Origin: an uncultured bacterium
GTDB taxonomy: Bacteria > Cyanobacteriota > Vampirovibrionia > Gastranaerophilales > Gastranaerophilaceae
DNA length: 64,000 nucleotides
Reading direction: 5' to 3'
NCBI GenBank assembly: GCA_949299935.1
Contig: CASGCE010000033.1
Coordinates: forward strand, 62,001 to 126,000
This document shows positions 30,740 to 37,092 of this stretch, one piece after another (the stretch's first letter is position 1; every line of letters starts with the position of its first letter). The position numbers and the translations under genes are program-made. The notes under the pieces were generated by a model that saw only the letters and a list, made by a program, of their open reading frames with translations, was not told the origin of the DNA and searched no databases.

Positions 30740-31975
30740 TTATATATGCCTGATGTATTTTTCGATATCATCATCAGATATCATTTCAGTTACGGCGACA
30801 AGAATTTTGTTTTTATCGAGTTTTAAGCCGCCGATTATTCCTGCAGTTTTCAATATTTCCAATGTTTTCTCAGCATCTTTAACTTCTATAACAAATTCAT
30901 TAAAGAAATTTTTATTTAGGGTTTTAATACCTTTTTCAGCGAGTTTTTTGGAAAGTTTATGTGCTTGTTTTGCGCAGAGATATCCGGCTTGTTTAAAGCC
31001 ATTTTCGCCCATTACGCTCAAATAAAGAGTGGCACAAAGTCCGACAAGTGCCTGATTTGAACATATATTGCTGGTAGCTTTTTCACGTTTAATATGTTGT
31101 TCCCGAGTTTGGAGTGTTAGCGTAAAGGCCTGATTACCTTCAGCATCAACGGTCCTTCCTGCAAGACGTCCCGGAAGCTGGCGCATGTATTTTTCTTTAC
31201 ATGCCATAAATCCGGCTGTCGGTCCGCCAAAACTTACCGGTATTCCTAATGTTTGGATATCTCCGACCATAATATCGCATTCAACGGGCTTAAGGATTGA
31301 TAATGTAGAAATATCAGTGCAAACCACAAGAAGTGTATTAACTTGTGGTACTTTTAGTATTTCGCCGTAAAAATCAGGTGTCTGGATTAAAACACAGGAA
31401 TAATCTGCCGTATTATCTGGAATATGGTCAAACCATTCGACCTTAACAGAGTTTGCGTGTGTATAGGTTTCAATAACTTTTTTATATTCAGGATTTAGTT
31501 GGTTTGAAACCAATACTTTGTCAATCTTTTTAATGCGAACAGTCATCAATATAGCTTCGGCACAGGCTGTTGCAGCGTCATAGACAGTTGCGTTTGCAAC
31601 ATCCATACCCGTAAGTCGGCAAATCATTGTCTGAAATTCATACATAATCTGCAGCGTACCTTGTGAAATCTCAGGTTGATAAGGCGTATACGCGGTGCTG
31701 AATTCAAACCTTTGCGCAACCTGGGAAATACATGCCGGTATGAATTTGTTATAACTGCCTACTCCCATAAAATTTATATAATCTGTTTTGTTACGTTTGG
31801 CGAGTGATTTGATATGCTTTTGTAATTCCATCTCGCTTATTCCCTCAGCAAGATCAAAATTATTCATAAGCGCCTTAGCGGGAATTTTTTTGAATAAGTC
31901 TTCTACGCCGCTAATGCCGATTTCTTCGCACATTGCCTTTTTTACACTGTCATTATGTACTAAAAAATTTTTCAT
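30740..31975 (-). CDS. gcvPA: Glycine dehydrogenase (decarboxylating) subunit 1
   Basis: N-terminal half of the P-protein of the glycine cleavage system, which decarboxylates glycine onto the lipoyl group of GcvH. The 411 residues show TAYTPYQPEISQGTLQ, the VYDAATACAEA segment, and DIQTLGIPVSFGGPTAGFMAC. In organisms with a split P-protein, the PLP-binding half is GcvPB; gcvPB is not adjacent and the next genes are tRNAs. The ATG overlaps the gcvH stop by one base (TAATG). The order is gcvT-gcvH-gcvPA. Confidence 0.93.
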   Translation of the reverse strand: MKNFLVHNDSVKKAMCEEIGISGVEDLFKKIPAKALMNNFDLAEGISEMELQKHIKSLAKRNKTDYINFMGVGSYNKFIPACISQVAQRFEFSTAYTPYQPEISQGTLQIMYEFQTMICRLTGMDVANATVYDAATACAEAILMTVRIKKIDKVLVSNQLNPEYKKVIETYTHANSVKVEWFDHIPDNTADYSCVLIQTPDFYGEILKVPQVNTLLVVCTDISTLSILKPVECDIMVGDIQTLGIPVSFGGPTAGFMACKEKYMRQLPGRLAGRTVDAEGNQAFTLTLQTREQHIKREKATSNICSNQALVGLCATLYLSVMGENGFKQAGYLCAKQAHKLSKKLAEKGIKTLNKNFFNEFVIEVKDAEKTLEILKTAGIIGGLKLDKNKILVAVTEMISDDDIEKYIRHI

Positions 31976-32355
31976 TATTCTAATTCTTCTTTATAATCTT
32001 CGTATTCTAAAAGGTCTGAAAATTCTGAATCGTCACCTGTTCTTTCGATTTTCACAAGCCAGCCGTTTTCGTAGCAGTCCTCATTTAAAATTTCCGGTGA
32101 ATTGACAATGGCGTTGTTTACATCAATAATTTTCCCGCTTACCGGTATATAAATCTCTGAGGCTGCTTTTACAGATTCTATTGTTGCAAAAGTGTCACCT
32201 TTTGTATATTCCGTATTAACTTCCGGTAACTCTACAAAAACTATGTCACCTAATTGCTCAATTGCATAATCTGTTAAACCGATTATATAATTCCCGTTAT
32301 CTTCCAGCAAGTATTCGTGAGATTTTGTGCATAAAATTTTTTCTGTAATACTCAT
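31975..32355 (-). CDS. gcvH: Glycine cleavage system H protein
   Basis: Lipoyl-carrying shuttle of the glycine cleavage system. The 126 residues include the hallmark GLTDYAIEQLGDIVFVELPE and the lipoylation site in ATIESVKAASE. The start lies one base after gcvT, with its ribosome binding site (AAGGAG) inside the gcvT end. The C-terminal end is somewhat acidic but the length is normal. Confidence 0.95.
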   Translation of the reverse strand: MSITEKILCTKSHEYLLEDNGNYIIGLTDYAIEQLGDIVFVELPEVNTEYTKGDTFATIESVKAASEIYIPVSGKIIDVNNAIVNSPEILNEDCYENGWLVKIERTGDDSEFSDLLEYEDYKEELE

Positions 32356-32356
32356 T

Positions 32357-33463
32357 TTAACTCCTTGTTACTTTATTCCTTTTTTGTATAAAAGGTCGTT
32401 TAACAACTTCGCCATCATGAAGTTTTTCTCTTATCATAACCTGAACTTTCGTTCCTAAGCAAATTTCTTTAATATTTTTTACATATGCCATTGCTATGTT
32501 TGCATTAAGAATCGGAGAAACTCCGCCGCTTGTTATTACTCCGACTTTTTCACCTTTGTAATAAACTTCATATTCGTGACGTGCGATAGATTTATCAAGC
32601 ATTTTTATACCGATAAGTTTCTTGGGCGCCCCGTTTTCTAATTGCTCCGTGATAACTTTTTTCCCGTTGTAATTATCAAGTTTATTCTTCGGTATGGACC
32701 AAGACAATCCTGCTTCAACCGGAGTCGTGTTTTCATCTAAATCGTTTCCGTATAGCGGCAGTGCTGCTTCAAGTCTTAAGGTGTCCCTTGCTCCTAAGCC
32801 TATGGGCATTACATTGTATTCTTTCCCCTCTTCAAGCAGTTTGTCCCATAAATATTCGACATATTCATTTATTACAAGAAGTTCAAATCCGTCTTCGCCT
32901 GTATATCCTGTCCTTGATATATACATAGGTATGTTAAGAAGCTTGTCTTCTTTTATCGTAAATGAATCCTGATTGTCTTTATATCCTAATTTACGGATTA
33001 AATCAATAGATTTTGGACCTTGAACCGCAATTAAGGATAAGTTATGTGATTGATTATCCAAATTTATATTATAACCTCTTTGATTCAAAGACATCCAGTT
33101 AATATCTTCATCTACTCTTGATGCGTTGCATACAATAAGATAGGTATTTTCTTTCAGTTTATAAATAATTAAATCGTCAATCAACCCGCCATTGCGGTTG
33201 GGAAGTTGGCAATATACAGCTTTACCGTTAGTTAGTTTGGAAATGTTTTGCGGGACAATTTTGTTTAAAAATTCTTCTGCATCTTCACCTATAACAAAAA
33301 TTTCTCCCATGTGTGACACATCAAATAAACCTACATTTTCTCGAACATTTTTGTGTTCTTCTATAATGGATGTGTATTGTACCGGCATATGCCAGCCCGC
33401 AAAATCAACCATTTTGGCACCAAGTTCGATGTGTTTTTCATGTAAGTAAGTTTTTTTGACCAT
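32357..33463 (-). CDS. gcvT: Glycine cleavage system T protein (aminomethyltransferase)
   Basis: Transfers the methylene group from aminomethyl-lipoyl GcvH to tetrahydrofolate, releasing ammonia. The 368 residues show FAGWHMPVQYTSI, LFDVSHMGEIFV, the folate-site segment SRTGYTGEDGFELL and the late YGNDLDENTTPVEAGL block. ATG 33463 follows AAGGAGGGA. First gene of the gcv operon. No glycine riboswitch is visible in the 75 bases upstream. Confidence 0.95.
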   Translation of the reverse strand: MVKKTYLHEKHIELGAKMVDFAGWHMPVQYTSIIEEHKNVRENVGLFDVSHMGEIFVIGEDAEEFLNKIVPQNISKLTNGKAVYCQLPNRNGGLIDDLIIYKLKENTYLIVCNASRVDEDINWMSLNQRGYNINLDNQSHNLSLIAVQGPKSIDLIRKLGYKDNQDSFTIKEDKLLNIPMYISRTGYTGEDGFELLVINEYVEYLWDKLLEEGKEYNVMPIGLGARDTLRLEAALPLYGNDLDENTTPVEAGLSWSIPKNKLDNYNGKKVITEQLENGAPKKLIGIKMLDKSIARHEYEVYYKGEKVGVITSGGVSPILNANIAMAYVKNIKEICLGTKVQVMIREKLHDGEVVKRPFIQKRNKVTRS

Positions 33464-33537
33464 ATTCCCTCCTTGTGTTTATTTTCTGATTTATAGGAGA
33501 AAATGTCAAGCATATTGATAAAATTTAAAATAAAATT

Positions 33538-34578
33538 CTAGGCTGATTCGGACAATTTCTTATATAATTCAATCTGTTTGTCAGATAGTGTCTTTGGAAT
33601 AATAATTTTAATTCTTGCATTTAAATTTCCGTATCCTCCCGATTTTTTAGGTAACCCGAGCCCTTTTAATCTCAGCATTTGTCCTGTGGAAGTTTTAGGC
33701 GGGATTTTTATACCTATTTTGCCGTGAAGAGTTTCAATATCCTTTTTTACACCTAAAACTGCTTGCGGTGGCGTTATTTCAACATCTTTTGTTAAATCAC
33801 AGCCTTCAATTTCATAATTATTATCTTTCATATGTATAACAAGGTAAAGGTCGCCTTTTTGGCCGTAGTCATCAGTTTTGCCTTCCCCTTTTACACGAAC
33901 TTTTTGACCTTCTTTTATGTCAGCCGGTAATTTTACCTTTATAGATTTTTGTTCTGATTTTATTCCGGTTCCGCCACATGCTGCACAAAATCCCCCGCCA
34001 GGTGGGCATTGACGACATTTTTCCATTTGATTAAATCTGACAGTTATTGGTTTTTGATCAAATAAATCTTTTGCTGTTACATTCAAATTCATTGTGGTAT
34101 CAAGATTTTCACTTTTTGTTTGTCGCCTGGACCTGGTGCTTTGTTGTTGTGAAGCTCCCCCAAAATCAAAGCCGCCAAAATCCATTCTACTGCTCCTTGT
34201 GGATTGGCCTGCTCCCATCATATCGCCAAATAATGAGCTGAAAAAGTCCGAAAATCCGCCTAAATCTTGACCGCCAAAGTTGAATGTTTGATAACCGCCT
34301 TGCCCGCCCCCAAAATTAAATTGTTCAAATCCCGGTGGTGGGGTGTATTCAGCTCCGCCTTGCCAGTTTGAACCTAAACTGTCATATCTTTGACGTTTTT
34401 GTTTGTCACCTAAAACTTCATAGGCTTCATTTATGTCTTTAAATTTTGTTTCTGCTTCTTTTGTTTTATTAACGTCAGGGTGATATTTGCGTGCAAGTTT
34501 TCTGTAGGCTGATTTTATTTCAGATTCGGTTGCTCCGCGTTTTACTCCCAATATTTCATAATAATCTTTGTATTGCAT
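33538..34578 (-). CDS. dnaJ: DnaJ-family co-chaperone with a single zinc site
   Basis: Hsp40 that delivers substrates to DnaK. The 346 residues have the J domain ([14 protein letters not shown]...HPDVN; HPD present), a Gly/Phe-rich linker (about 75-150) and the two C-terminal beta domains (substrate binding) with the dimer tail. The cysteine-rich region, normally four CXXCXGXG motifs, is reduced to CRQC and CAACGGTG, which would make one zinc site. It is intermediate between DnaJ and CbpA types. ATG 34578 follows AGGAG. Neighbours are not other heat-shock genes. Confidence 0.88.
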
Positions 34579-35755: not shown

Positions 35756-36151
35756 TTAGTAAATGTAGCAAAGAACTTCGCCGCCGATGTTTTCTTTGCG
35801 AGCTTTTCTGTCGGTCAACAGACCTTTGCTTGTTGATACGATTGCTACACCCATACCACCCAACACTTGTGGTAAGTTTTTAGCTTTTGAGTAGCTTCTT
35901 AAACCTGGTTTTGAAACTCTTTCAAGTCTTGTGATTACAGGTTTATATTTTTCATCATATTTTAAAGTTATTGAAAGAACTTTGAATTTTCCTTCTTCTT
36001 TAACTTCATAATCAGTGATGAAACCTTCTGATTTTAATAATTTAGCCAATTCTACTTTCAATTTTGATGAAGGCATAGAAACAGTTTCGTGAGAAACTTG
36101 GCTTGCGTTTCTGATTCTTGTAAGCATATCTGCTATAGGATCTGTATTCAT
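35756..36151 (-). CDS. rpsH: 30S ribosomal protein S8
   Basis: Central-domain 16S rRNA binder. The 131 residues begin [16 protein letters not shown] and end with the conserved [26 protein letters not shown]. In most bacteria it directly follows rpsN; here it is preceded by a structured leader and by an opposite-strand gene, so it heads its own transcription unit with rplF and rplR. Confidence 0.98.
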
Positions 36152-36169
36152 TTTTTCTCCTTTAACTCA

Positions 36170-36310
36170 GACTTACCCACAGTTCATAGGCAGTATCCGG
36201 TATCTATTACACCGCTTACCGAGCTAATTGTTGCCGCATATTGTGTTCAGAAGTTTTTTTCTCGCACCTTTCGTCCACTTCGGCGCCTCTCGGCAGTTCG
36301 GAACTGTATG
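36170..36310 (-). promoter_or_regulatory. Structured leader RNA upstream of rpsH, with mutually exclusive stems
   Basis: On the minus strand, ACAGTTC (36307-36301) can pair perfectly with GAACTGT near the end of the leader (36185-36179), enclosing about 115 bases; but it can also fold locally as CAGTT / AACTG (36306-36295). Between them lie GCC-GAGA-GGC (a GNRA hairpin), an alternative GCGCC / GGTGC stem and a CGGTG / TACCG stem. Competing local and long-range pairing is typical of riboswitches and r-protein autoregulatory leaders. No known class could be assigned. A candidate -10 (TATAAT, 36324-36319, minus) lies just upstream. Confidence 0.5.
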
Positions 36311-36528
36311 TTAATTCTATTATAAAAATACTTTTTTAACAAGTGTTTTGTTTCGACATGTTACGTAAAAATTTTTACTTATATTAAGTAATGTAAATAC
36401 AGCTTTTTGTTTAGAAAAACTCTATCATAAGGGAATTTGAGCTATATTATTGGAAAATCTAATAGCAATAATTTTCATTTTTATTTTTTATACTGTTATT
36501 AGTTAATATGAAAGGAGGTTCTTCTATT

Positions 36529-36816
36529 ATGGGAATTGATGCAGTAGGTTTTTGCGGGAAATATCAGCTTAATGCAAATCAGGAAATGCATGATCAACGG
36601 GCTTGCTTAAGGCGTGATTATATGCTTGGTGCAGCTTGCGGATATGCGAAAAATGGTGACATTATTGCGAAACAACTGTTAGATTTTTACAATGGTCAAT
36701 ATAATAATGACAATTATGCGCCTTTTAATATTGTTCTTGATTTGCCAGACGAAATGGATGCTCAGTTTGAAGAAAATATGAATAAAGTTGGACAAGAATT
36801 TGATAAATTGGCTTAA
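36529..36816 (+). CDS. Small unknown protein inserted within the spc operon
   Basis: A 95-residue protein on the strand opposite to the ribosomal genes, between rpsN and rpsH. ATG 36529 follows GGAGG at ten bases; ATG 36508 precedes that site and is less likely. It is rich in Asn, Tyr and Asp, has three cysteines (VGFCGKY, RACLRR, AACGYA), and no membrane segment. The N-terminus MGIDAVGF resembles MGLDGVNF of the 3751 repeat protein. Bounded by a bidirectional terminator. Function unknown; the position breaks an otherwise very conserved operon. Confidence 0.75.
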   Translation: MGIDAVGFCGKYQLNANQEMHDQRACLRRDYMLGAACGYAKNGDIIAKQLLDFYNGQYNNDNYAPFNIVLDLPDEMDAQFEENMNKVGQEFDKLA

Positions 36817-36838: not shown

Positions 36839-36865
36839 AAAACACCCGAAAATCTCGGGTGTTTT
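36839..36865. terminator. Bidirectional terminator between the 36529 gene and rpsN
   Basis: Eleven-base-pair stem AAAACACCCGA / TCGGGTGTTTT, loop AAATC, with T-rich exits on both strands. It ends the rpsJ-rpsN transcript. Confidence 0.9.
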
Positions 36866-36885: not shown

Positions 36886-37092
36886 TTACCAGCTTGCTTT
36901 TGTAACGCCAGGCAACAAACCTTGGTGTGCCATTTTTCTTAAACAAATTCTGCATAAACCGAAATCTCTATGGAAACCGTGAGGTCTTCCGCATATGCTG
37001 CATCTGTTATGAAGTCTTACTGTCGGGTATTTACCTTGAGCAGCAAGCATTCTTCTTTTTTCTTCTTTGTTTATCATCGCTTTTTTAGCCAT
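36886..37092 (-). CDS. rpsZ: 30S ribosomal protein S14, zinc type
   Basis: Small-subunit head protein. The 68 residues carry two CXXC pairs ([10 protein letters not shown]...CRICLRKMA), so this is the short zinc-binding form, with the usual ending [11 protein letters not shown]. Last gene of the rpsJ to rpsN unit; a terminator follows. Confidence 0.96.

Follow-up and report, generated by a model that had tools for sequence, protein, structure and literature searches.

The leader in front of rpsH in the window (the whole 64,000-nucleotide stretch of DNA that was analysed, from an uncultured member of the Gastranaerophilaceae) holds two tandem copies of the internal loop recognised by ribosomal protein S8 (uS8), N-ACU-G...U-AAG, with variable, covarying closing stems. 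The leader is interpreted as an S8 autoregulatory operator that would repress rpsH-rplF-rplR, with a probability of roughly 0.88 as judged from sequence comparison. S8 is named as the ligand because the leader carries two S8 recognition loops and S8 is the product of the downstream gene. The two motifs, their covariation, the identity of their core with that of rRNA and Escherichia coli mRNA, their conservation, the promoter and the position of the element point to S8 binding, to repression and to a joint use of both sites.

In the proposed mechanism, a gene inserted on the opposite strand would have severed rpsH-rplF-rplR from the spc cluster, and the run would be transcribed from its own promoter, starting at ACAGUU. 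S8 in excess of free 16S rRNA would bind the two S8 sites of the leader. S8 on site 2, or the helix that it stabilises, would block entry of the 30S subunit and so repress translation of rpsH, since site 2 lies just 5' of the Shine-Dalgarno sequence and a bound protein would cover the ribosome landing site. Through coupling, rplF and rplR would be repressed along with rpsH. A long-range pairing between the mRNA 5' end and the loop of site 2 (P0) would bind both sites into one pseudoknotted fold.

A first-pass annotation had described a riboswitch-like leader and suggested control by a ribosomal protein or a ligand. The ribosomal-protein option has strong support, with the two S8 loops in the leader indicating S8. 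Ligand control in the riboswitch sense found no support: there was no Rfam match, and the conserved positions mostly belong to the promoter, P0 and the two S8 sites. The annotation had also called for a comparison with Rfam leaders. A search of Rfam 15, at the gathering score and at E ≤10, returned nothing over the leader and only weak matches elsewhere, and no family in the searched copy describes it. A metabolite-binding riboswitch before rpsH would account for the long leader and the competing stems, but it is scarcely credible, as Rfam gave no match even at an E of 10, the gene context is exclusively that of a ribosomal protein, the conserved core letters are mostly those of the S8 site, and the element was found only before rpsH.

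The rpsH locus and its transcript

The rpsH gene (S8; 35756–36151, minus strand; Pfam PF00410) is both the regulated gene and the source of the proposed repressor. It is followed 3', in the same gene run, by rplF (L6; 35136–35675, minus strand) and rplR (L18; 34700–35089, minus strand). The window genome encodes an intact S8 protein, in which the STS loop is retained. Farther 3' (30740–34578, minus strand) there are a DnaJ-type gene and then, as judged by eye, gcvT, gcvH and gcvPA-like genes. E. coli has rpsE-rpmD-rplO-secY at that place; the spc order of the window is thus broken downstream as well.

Upstream, the spc cluster is interrupted between rpsN (36886–37092) and rpsH by a small ORF and a hairpin. 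The ORF (36508–36816, plus strand; 102 amino acids from its first ATG) splits rpsH from the upstream spc genes, and the terminator-like hairpin between this ORF and rpsN (36839–36865, plus strand) was found in a simple consensus scan. With A runs 5' and T runs 3' of its stem, the hairpin may serve both strands. A Pfam search with the small ORF gave no match; relatives of it with 46–61% identity occupy this junction, in the same orientation, in L044, L047, L048, L050 and L070. Cut off in this way from the cluster, rpsH needs a promoter of its own.

The relatives retrieved via the rpsH protein from named records are mostly Candidatus Gastranaerophilales. Across the relatives, the gap between rpsN and rpsH ranges from 11 bases to more than 2 kb, and the junction looks like an insertion hot spot in the family. 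In the loci L038–L126, the gap is 44 bases to more than 2 kb within the family and 11–70 bases in other orders of the class. A repeat or mobile element was considered and rejected: a 191-base query matched its own genome over its full length only once, the next best match having an E of 0.043, and there was no phage match.

A sigma-70-type promoter is found at 36314–36342 on the minus strand, with TTGTTA at −35 (36342–36337), a 17-nt spacer and TAGAAT at −10 (36319–36314). In 76 distinct leaders of relatives the promoter reads TTGnAA, a 17-base spacer and TGnTAnTTT, and it ends seven bases 5' of ACAGTT. Transcription probably starts at about 36307, the first base of ACAGUU, as judged from this promoter. 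The first-pass annotation had placed the start of the leader at 36330; with the transcript probably beginning at ca. 36307, the leader spans ca. 36307–36152 on the minus strand, or about 156 nt.

The Shine-Dalgarno sequence AAAGGAG (36157–36163, minus strand) is separated by four bases from site 2, whose fourth outer pair ends at 36168. The rpsH gene starts at 36151, and the same mRNA therefore encodes S8. A simple consensus scan of the minus strand between 35600 and 37200 found no terminator-like site, so that the leader does not qualify as a transcription attenuator. With no intrinsic terminator between the leader and rpsH, translational control is likelier.

Two S8 sites and their core

Site 1 extends over 36212–36301 on the minus strand. 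Its outer stem is CCG (36301–36299) with CGG (36214–36212), and its inner stem is CCGAG (36293–36289) with CUCGG (36223–36219). In rRNA numbering, its 5' core has A641 and ACU 642–644 (36297–36295), its 3' core is AAG 595–597 (36217–36215), and G645 (36294) faces U594 (36218). Inside site 1, a further stem, P1b (GCCG, 36284–36281, with CGGC, 36236–36233, minus strand), encloses a stretch of variable length. Site 2 (36168–36199, minus strand) is more compact, with an outer stem of CGGA (36199–36196) and UCUG (36171–36168) and an inner stem of CCU (36190–36188) and GGG (36178–36176). Its 5' core is U641, ACU 642–644 and G645 (36195–36191), and its 3' core is U594 and AAG 595–597 (36175–36172).

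As given in the available portion of PMC4176348, the S8 core consists of A595-(A596-U644), G597-C643-U641 and the invariant A642, and the corresponding triple of the E. coli spc mRNA is A+80-(A+81-U+11). Helix 21 of the relatives' 16S rRNA reads UAAGUC...GGAUACUG (in L152, for example, GUUAAGUCUGG...CCGGAUACUGGC), and the leader core ACU(G)/(U)AAG with its flanks, GGAUACUG/UAAGUC, is identical to it in letters. Relatives of the same genus or family stand in for the window genome in this comparison, as its assembly lacks its own 16S rRNA. Site 2 has these letters in swapped strand order – the UACUG strand comes first in the leader, and it is the opposite end that the loop closes.

The E. coli spc operator for S8, at the start of rplE (1S03), has the same core, ACU(G)/(C,U)AAG, the same A-(A-U) triple and the same strand order as the leader, the U644 strand preceding that of A595/A596. 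It serves S8 feedback, as is predicted for the leader, and in both the strands are permuted relative to 16S rRNA. When the motif descriptor was run on rplE of E. coli MG1655, with only two pairs (one fewer) demanded of the outer stem, it placed U at +11 and AA at +80/+81. This matches the published triple, and the register is thereby checked against an experimentally solved complex. Searched for a motif placed at rplE as in E. coli, the corresponding regions of 87 relatives gave none.

A ligand other than S8 itself, be it L6 or L18 from the same operon or a complex, is very improbable. Both rplF and rplR do lie downstream, and the ligand of an r-leader is often not the product of the first gene (available portion of PMC7247131), but the motif is what S8 binds in both 16S rRNA and E. 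coli mRNA, and the first gene encodes S8.

The motif descriptor comprises an outer stem, one base, ACU(G/A), an inner stem, (U/C)AAG and the outer stem again. The motif recurs in the rpsH upstream regions of relatives and of the window genome. Within 300 nt upstream of rpsH, the descriptor found it in 45 of 89 relatives, compared to a mean of 0.44 and a maximum of 2 in 50 shuffle sets. A larger set comprised 235 distinct upstream regions; it is biased towards the tandem type, as a tandem-type model supplied 110 of the 279 loci behind it. At least one motif was present in 176 of these regions (shuffles 1.38, maximum 4) and at least two in 96 (shuffles 0). Four odd ones were set aside, leaving 92 two-motif leaders, in which the distance from the end of site 2 (third outer pair) to the start codon is 11–39 nt, mostly 12–22 nt.

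When the stems were enforced and the core positions were freed one by one, 254 sites had the S8 letter at each of A642, C643, U644, A595, A596 and G597, while the shuffle sets gave 1.1–2.5 each. Because the descriptor admits only G-U, A-C and G-C at 645/594, and had chosen the tandem set, this pair was retested free: GU was found in 191 sites, AC in 34, GC in 17, AU in 3 and others in 9. G-U and A-C wobble pairs are of nearly equal shape. A pattern of sequence only, without stems, was rejected as unspecific, the reversed control matching about equally often.

These counts also bear on a simpler explanation, that of a promoter and an untranslated leader setting mRNA stability or basal translation, with S8-like loops that are coincidental. 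The promoter is strongly conserved, and a leader would exist here simply because rpsH lost its upstream operon. Against coincidence stand the number of regions with one motif, the number with two or more and the six locked core positions, and this explanation is judged improbable.

Two alignments were built without structure information: A1, with 14 tandem leaders, and A2, with 48. The input to A2 was the leaders with a 5' CAGUU (78 of the 92), thinned at 90% similarity to 49; L051 (because of its length) and L245 (by hand, only its 3' part having been extracted) were left out before A2, which has 48 rows. In A2, 97.8% of the cells are paired, and two-sided changes are found at 11 of 20 pairs. 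The covariation score was 0.300 versus 0.188 in shuffles (reached in 0 of 500) and at most 0.097 in slid registers. Lack of conservation or of covariation among relatives, the outcome that the first-pass annotation had set against its own proposal, did not occur: the helices of A1 and A2 covary. The S8 core letters of both sites, A642, C643 and U644 facing A595, A596 and G597 across an asymmetric internal loop flanked by two helices, are present in all 48 rows, with the exception of the 5' strand of site 1 (47 of 48, one row having a gap).

Two of the four pairs of P1b have two-sided changes in A1 (columns 26–29 with 113–116). A GNRA hairpin that had been annotated within the leader, GCC-GAGA-GGC, is present in the window, but its conservation is not borne out, as it was seen by eye in only two of the 14 rows of A1 (G000 and G005); the relatives pair CCGAG with the distant CUCGG instead. 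Folding stability was discarded as evidence, since z scores of −1.06 (minus strand) and −0.91 (plus strand) are little better than shuffles and are uninformative.

Long-range pairing and possible switching

The complementary segments reported near the two ends of the leader are there as claimed, on the minus strand: ACAGTT(C) at 36307–36301, AACTG at 36298–36294 and, 115 bases apart, GAACTGT at 36185–36179. Of 1000 dinucleotide-shuffled versions of the leader (158 nt), 91 contained a perfect 7-nt inverted repeat with its arms 60 nt or more apart. As a 7-mer match in one sequence is weak, and the fold energy is ordinary, the relatives had to decide. P0 is formed by ACAGUU (36302–36307, minus strand), at the probable 5' end of the mRNA, and AACUGU (36179–36184, minus strand), in the loop of site 2. 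Its 5' strand can alternatively pair locally with 36294–36298.

The long-range pairing of ACAGTTC with GAACTGT was confirmed, being complete in all 48 aligned relatives at five of six pairs; the local 5' hairpin can form all five of its pairs in 41 of the 48. Since the pairs of P0 are almost invariant, P0 is without covariation support. Among the 92 leaders, 77 combine the 5' CAGUU with (A/G)ACUG in loop 2, 13 lack the two altogether, and one leader each has only the one or only the other, a concordance (90 of 92) that is inflated by shared ancestry. By joining the 5' end to the loop of site 2, P0 crosses that site's stem and makes a pseudoknot.

RNAalifold gave a possible alternative helix, P_alt, between GCGGUGU (36215–36209) and AUACUGC (36196–36190) on the minus strand, which is mutually exclusive with the outer stem of site 1 and with the use of the 5' strand in site 2. 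The competing stems of the first-pass annotation therefore stand as a description, in the form of P0 against the local hairpin and of P_alt against the S8 sites; as a switching mechanism they are weakly supported and unproven.

Such a mechanism would be a two-state S8 switch, which would refine the S8-operator reading with no other ligand, and which is possible but doubtful. In the S8-free state, P0, the inner part of P1 and P_alt might hide both sites and leave the Shine-Dalgarno sequence free. S8 on site 1 might then break P_alt and release the 5' strand of site 2, with site 2 forming against the Shine-Dalgarno sequence. RNAalifold picked P_alt on 14 leaders, its cells pair at 96.1% in the 48 leaders, and the linker GGUGU is nearly invariant, though its UGU is needed by no S8 site. 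The pairing of the linker with the site 2 strand has a mean of −7.0 kcal/mol versus −4.7 kcal/mol for shuffled linkers, and a group with a different linker (L052, L166) can form GGUAGUAU/AUACUGCC. However, only 10 of 71 distinct linkers rank in the best 5 of 100 shuffles, and P_alt has one cell of two-sided change. The S8-competent fold, computed without P0, is 3.1 kcal/mol more stable on average; it is at least as stable in 42 of the 48 leaders, with P_alt favoured in 6.

Distribution and relation to known S8 control

In an unselected set, with 330 nt searched before rpsH, at least one site was found in 44 of 53 genomes of the family. The other nine family members fail the descriptor, some of them being near misses. 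One of 20 genomes in other families of the same order has a site, compared to none of 16 from elsewhere in the class and none of 20 from elsewhere in the phylum, the last sample being 20 upstream regions among 45 such genomes with an rpsH match. R1, a covariance model of A1, matches 117 of 383 family genomes, in 16 of 41 genera. Its 118 matches consist of 110 loci that were examined (L237–L346), seven in rpsH loci already included, and G159, which was left out. Of the 110 loci, 108 have rpsH and L312 ends at a contig edge; the match in L344 was rejected as a false positive, as it lies, by eye, inside a helicase-like ORF. The conserved element was found only before rpsH.

The E. coli spc operator is a single site overlapping the start of rplE, whereas the window and the tandem group have two copies in a dedicated rpsH leader, with a pseudoknot at the 5' end and a promoter of its own. 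The element is very probably a variant S8 leader that moved to rpsH, was duplicated and was tied together by the 5'-end pseudoknot. A larger proposal, tentative and with the odds somewhat against it, is that of a class of r-protein leaders outside the Gammaproteobacteria – a two-site pseudoknotted S8 operator, its sites coupled into a cooperative switch by a conserved alternative helix, that would have been relocated from rplE to rpsH during the break-up of the spc operon. The same S8 module, familiar mainly from E. coli and related bacteria, is found here in a distant phylum at another gene, duplicated and rewired, and the leader would show how autoregulation can survive when a ribosomal operon disintegrates.

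The published bacterial and archaeal r-leaders are likewise conserved, structured leaders before r-protein genes, and none of the 20 in Table 1 of Eckert and Weinberg 2020 is assigned to S8 or placed before rpsH (available portion of PMC7247131). On S8 control, a 2024 review covers E. coli and V. cholerae, giving it as unknown for other species, in its available portion (PMC10931766). No report of an S8 leader before rpsH was found in the literature searched, a corpus with subscription papers mostly outside it, so that this absence is no proof of novelty; nor did that literature yield a paper on Gastranaerophilales and riboswitches. Yeast RPS22B, a uS8 homologue, represses its own gene at splicing via an intron RNA structure that its authors could not align to the bacterial S8 site (available portion of PMC13232506). 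Both systems would thus be cases of self-repression through RNA structure within the uS8 family, as proposed for the leader, with RPS22B acting on splicing.

The E. coli L20 leader of rpmI-rplT reportedly has two L20 sites in one leader, with a long-range pseudoknot. It resembles the S8 leader in having two sites that mimic rRNA, but the protein and the mimic are different and there is no sequence relation.

Leaders with one site, with two sites, and with or without the pseudoknot form a natural series for studying the path from rRNA mimic to regulatory switch. In some relatives the sole site found is far from the start codon (in L072, for example, A642 is at −189), and a steric block of the 30S subunit would be harder there. 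Eight loci of the same genus (L041, L043–L048 and L050) have site 1, in the form GUU-A/G-ACUG...UAAG-AAC, but where site 2 would be they carry another conserved 3' segment, GGAGCC...GGUUUCCGCAAACAG; no relic of a second site was found in them by eye. L106, L107 and L111 have one-site leaders with the A645/C594 variant, CUA-A-ACUA...CAAG-UAG, near the start codon, and their rpsN is 1.2–2.1 kb away.
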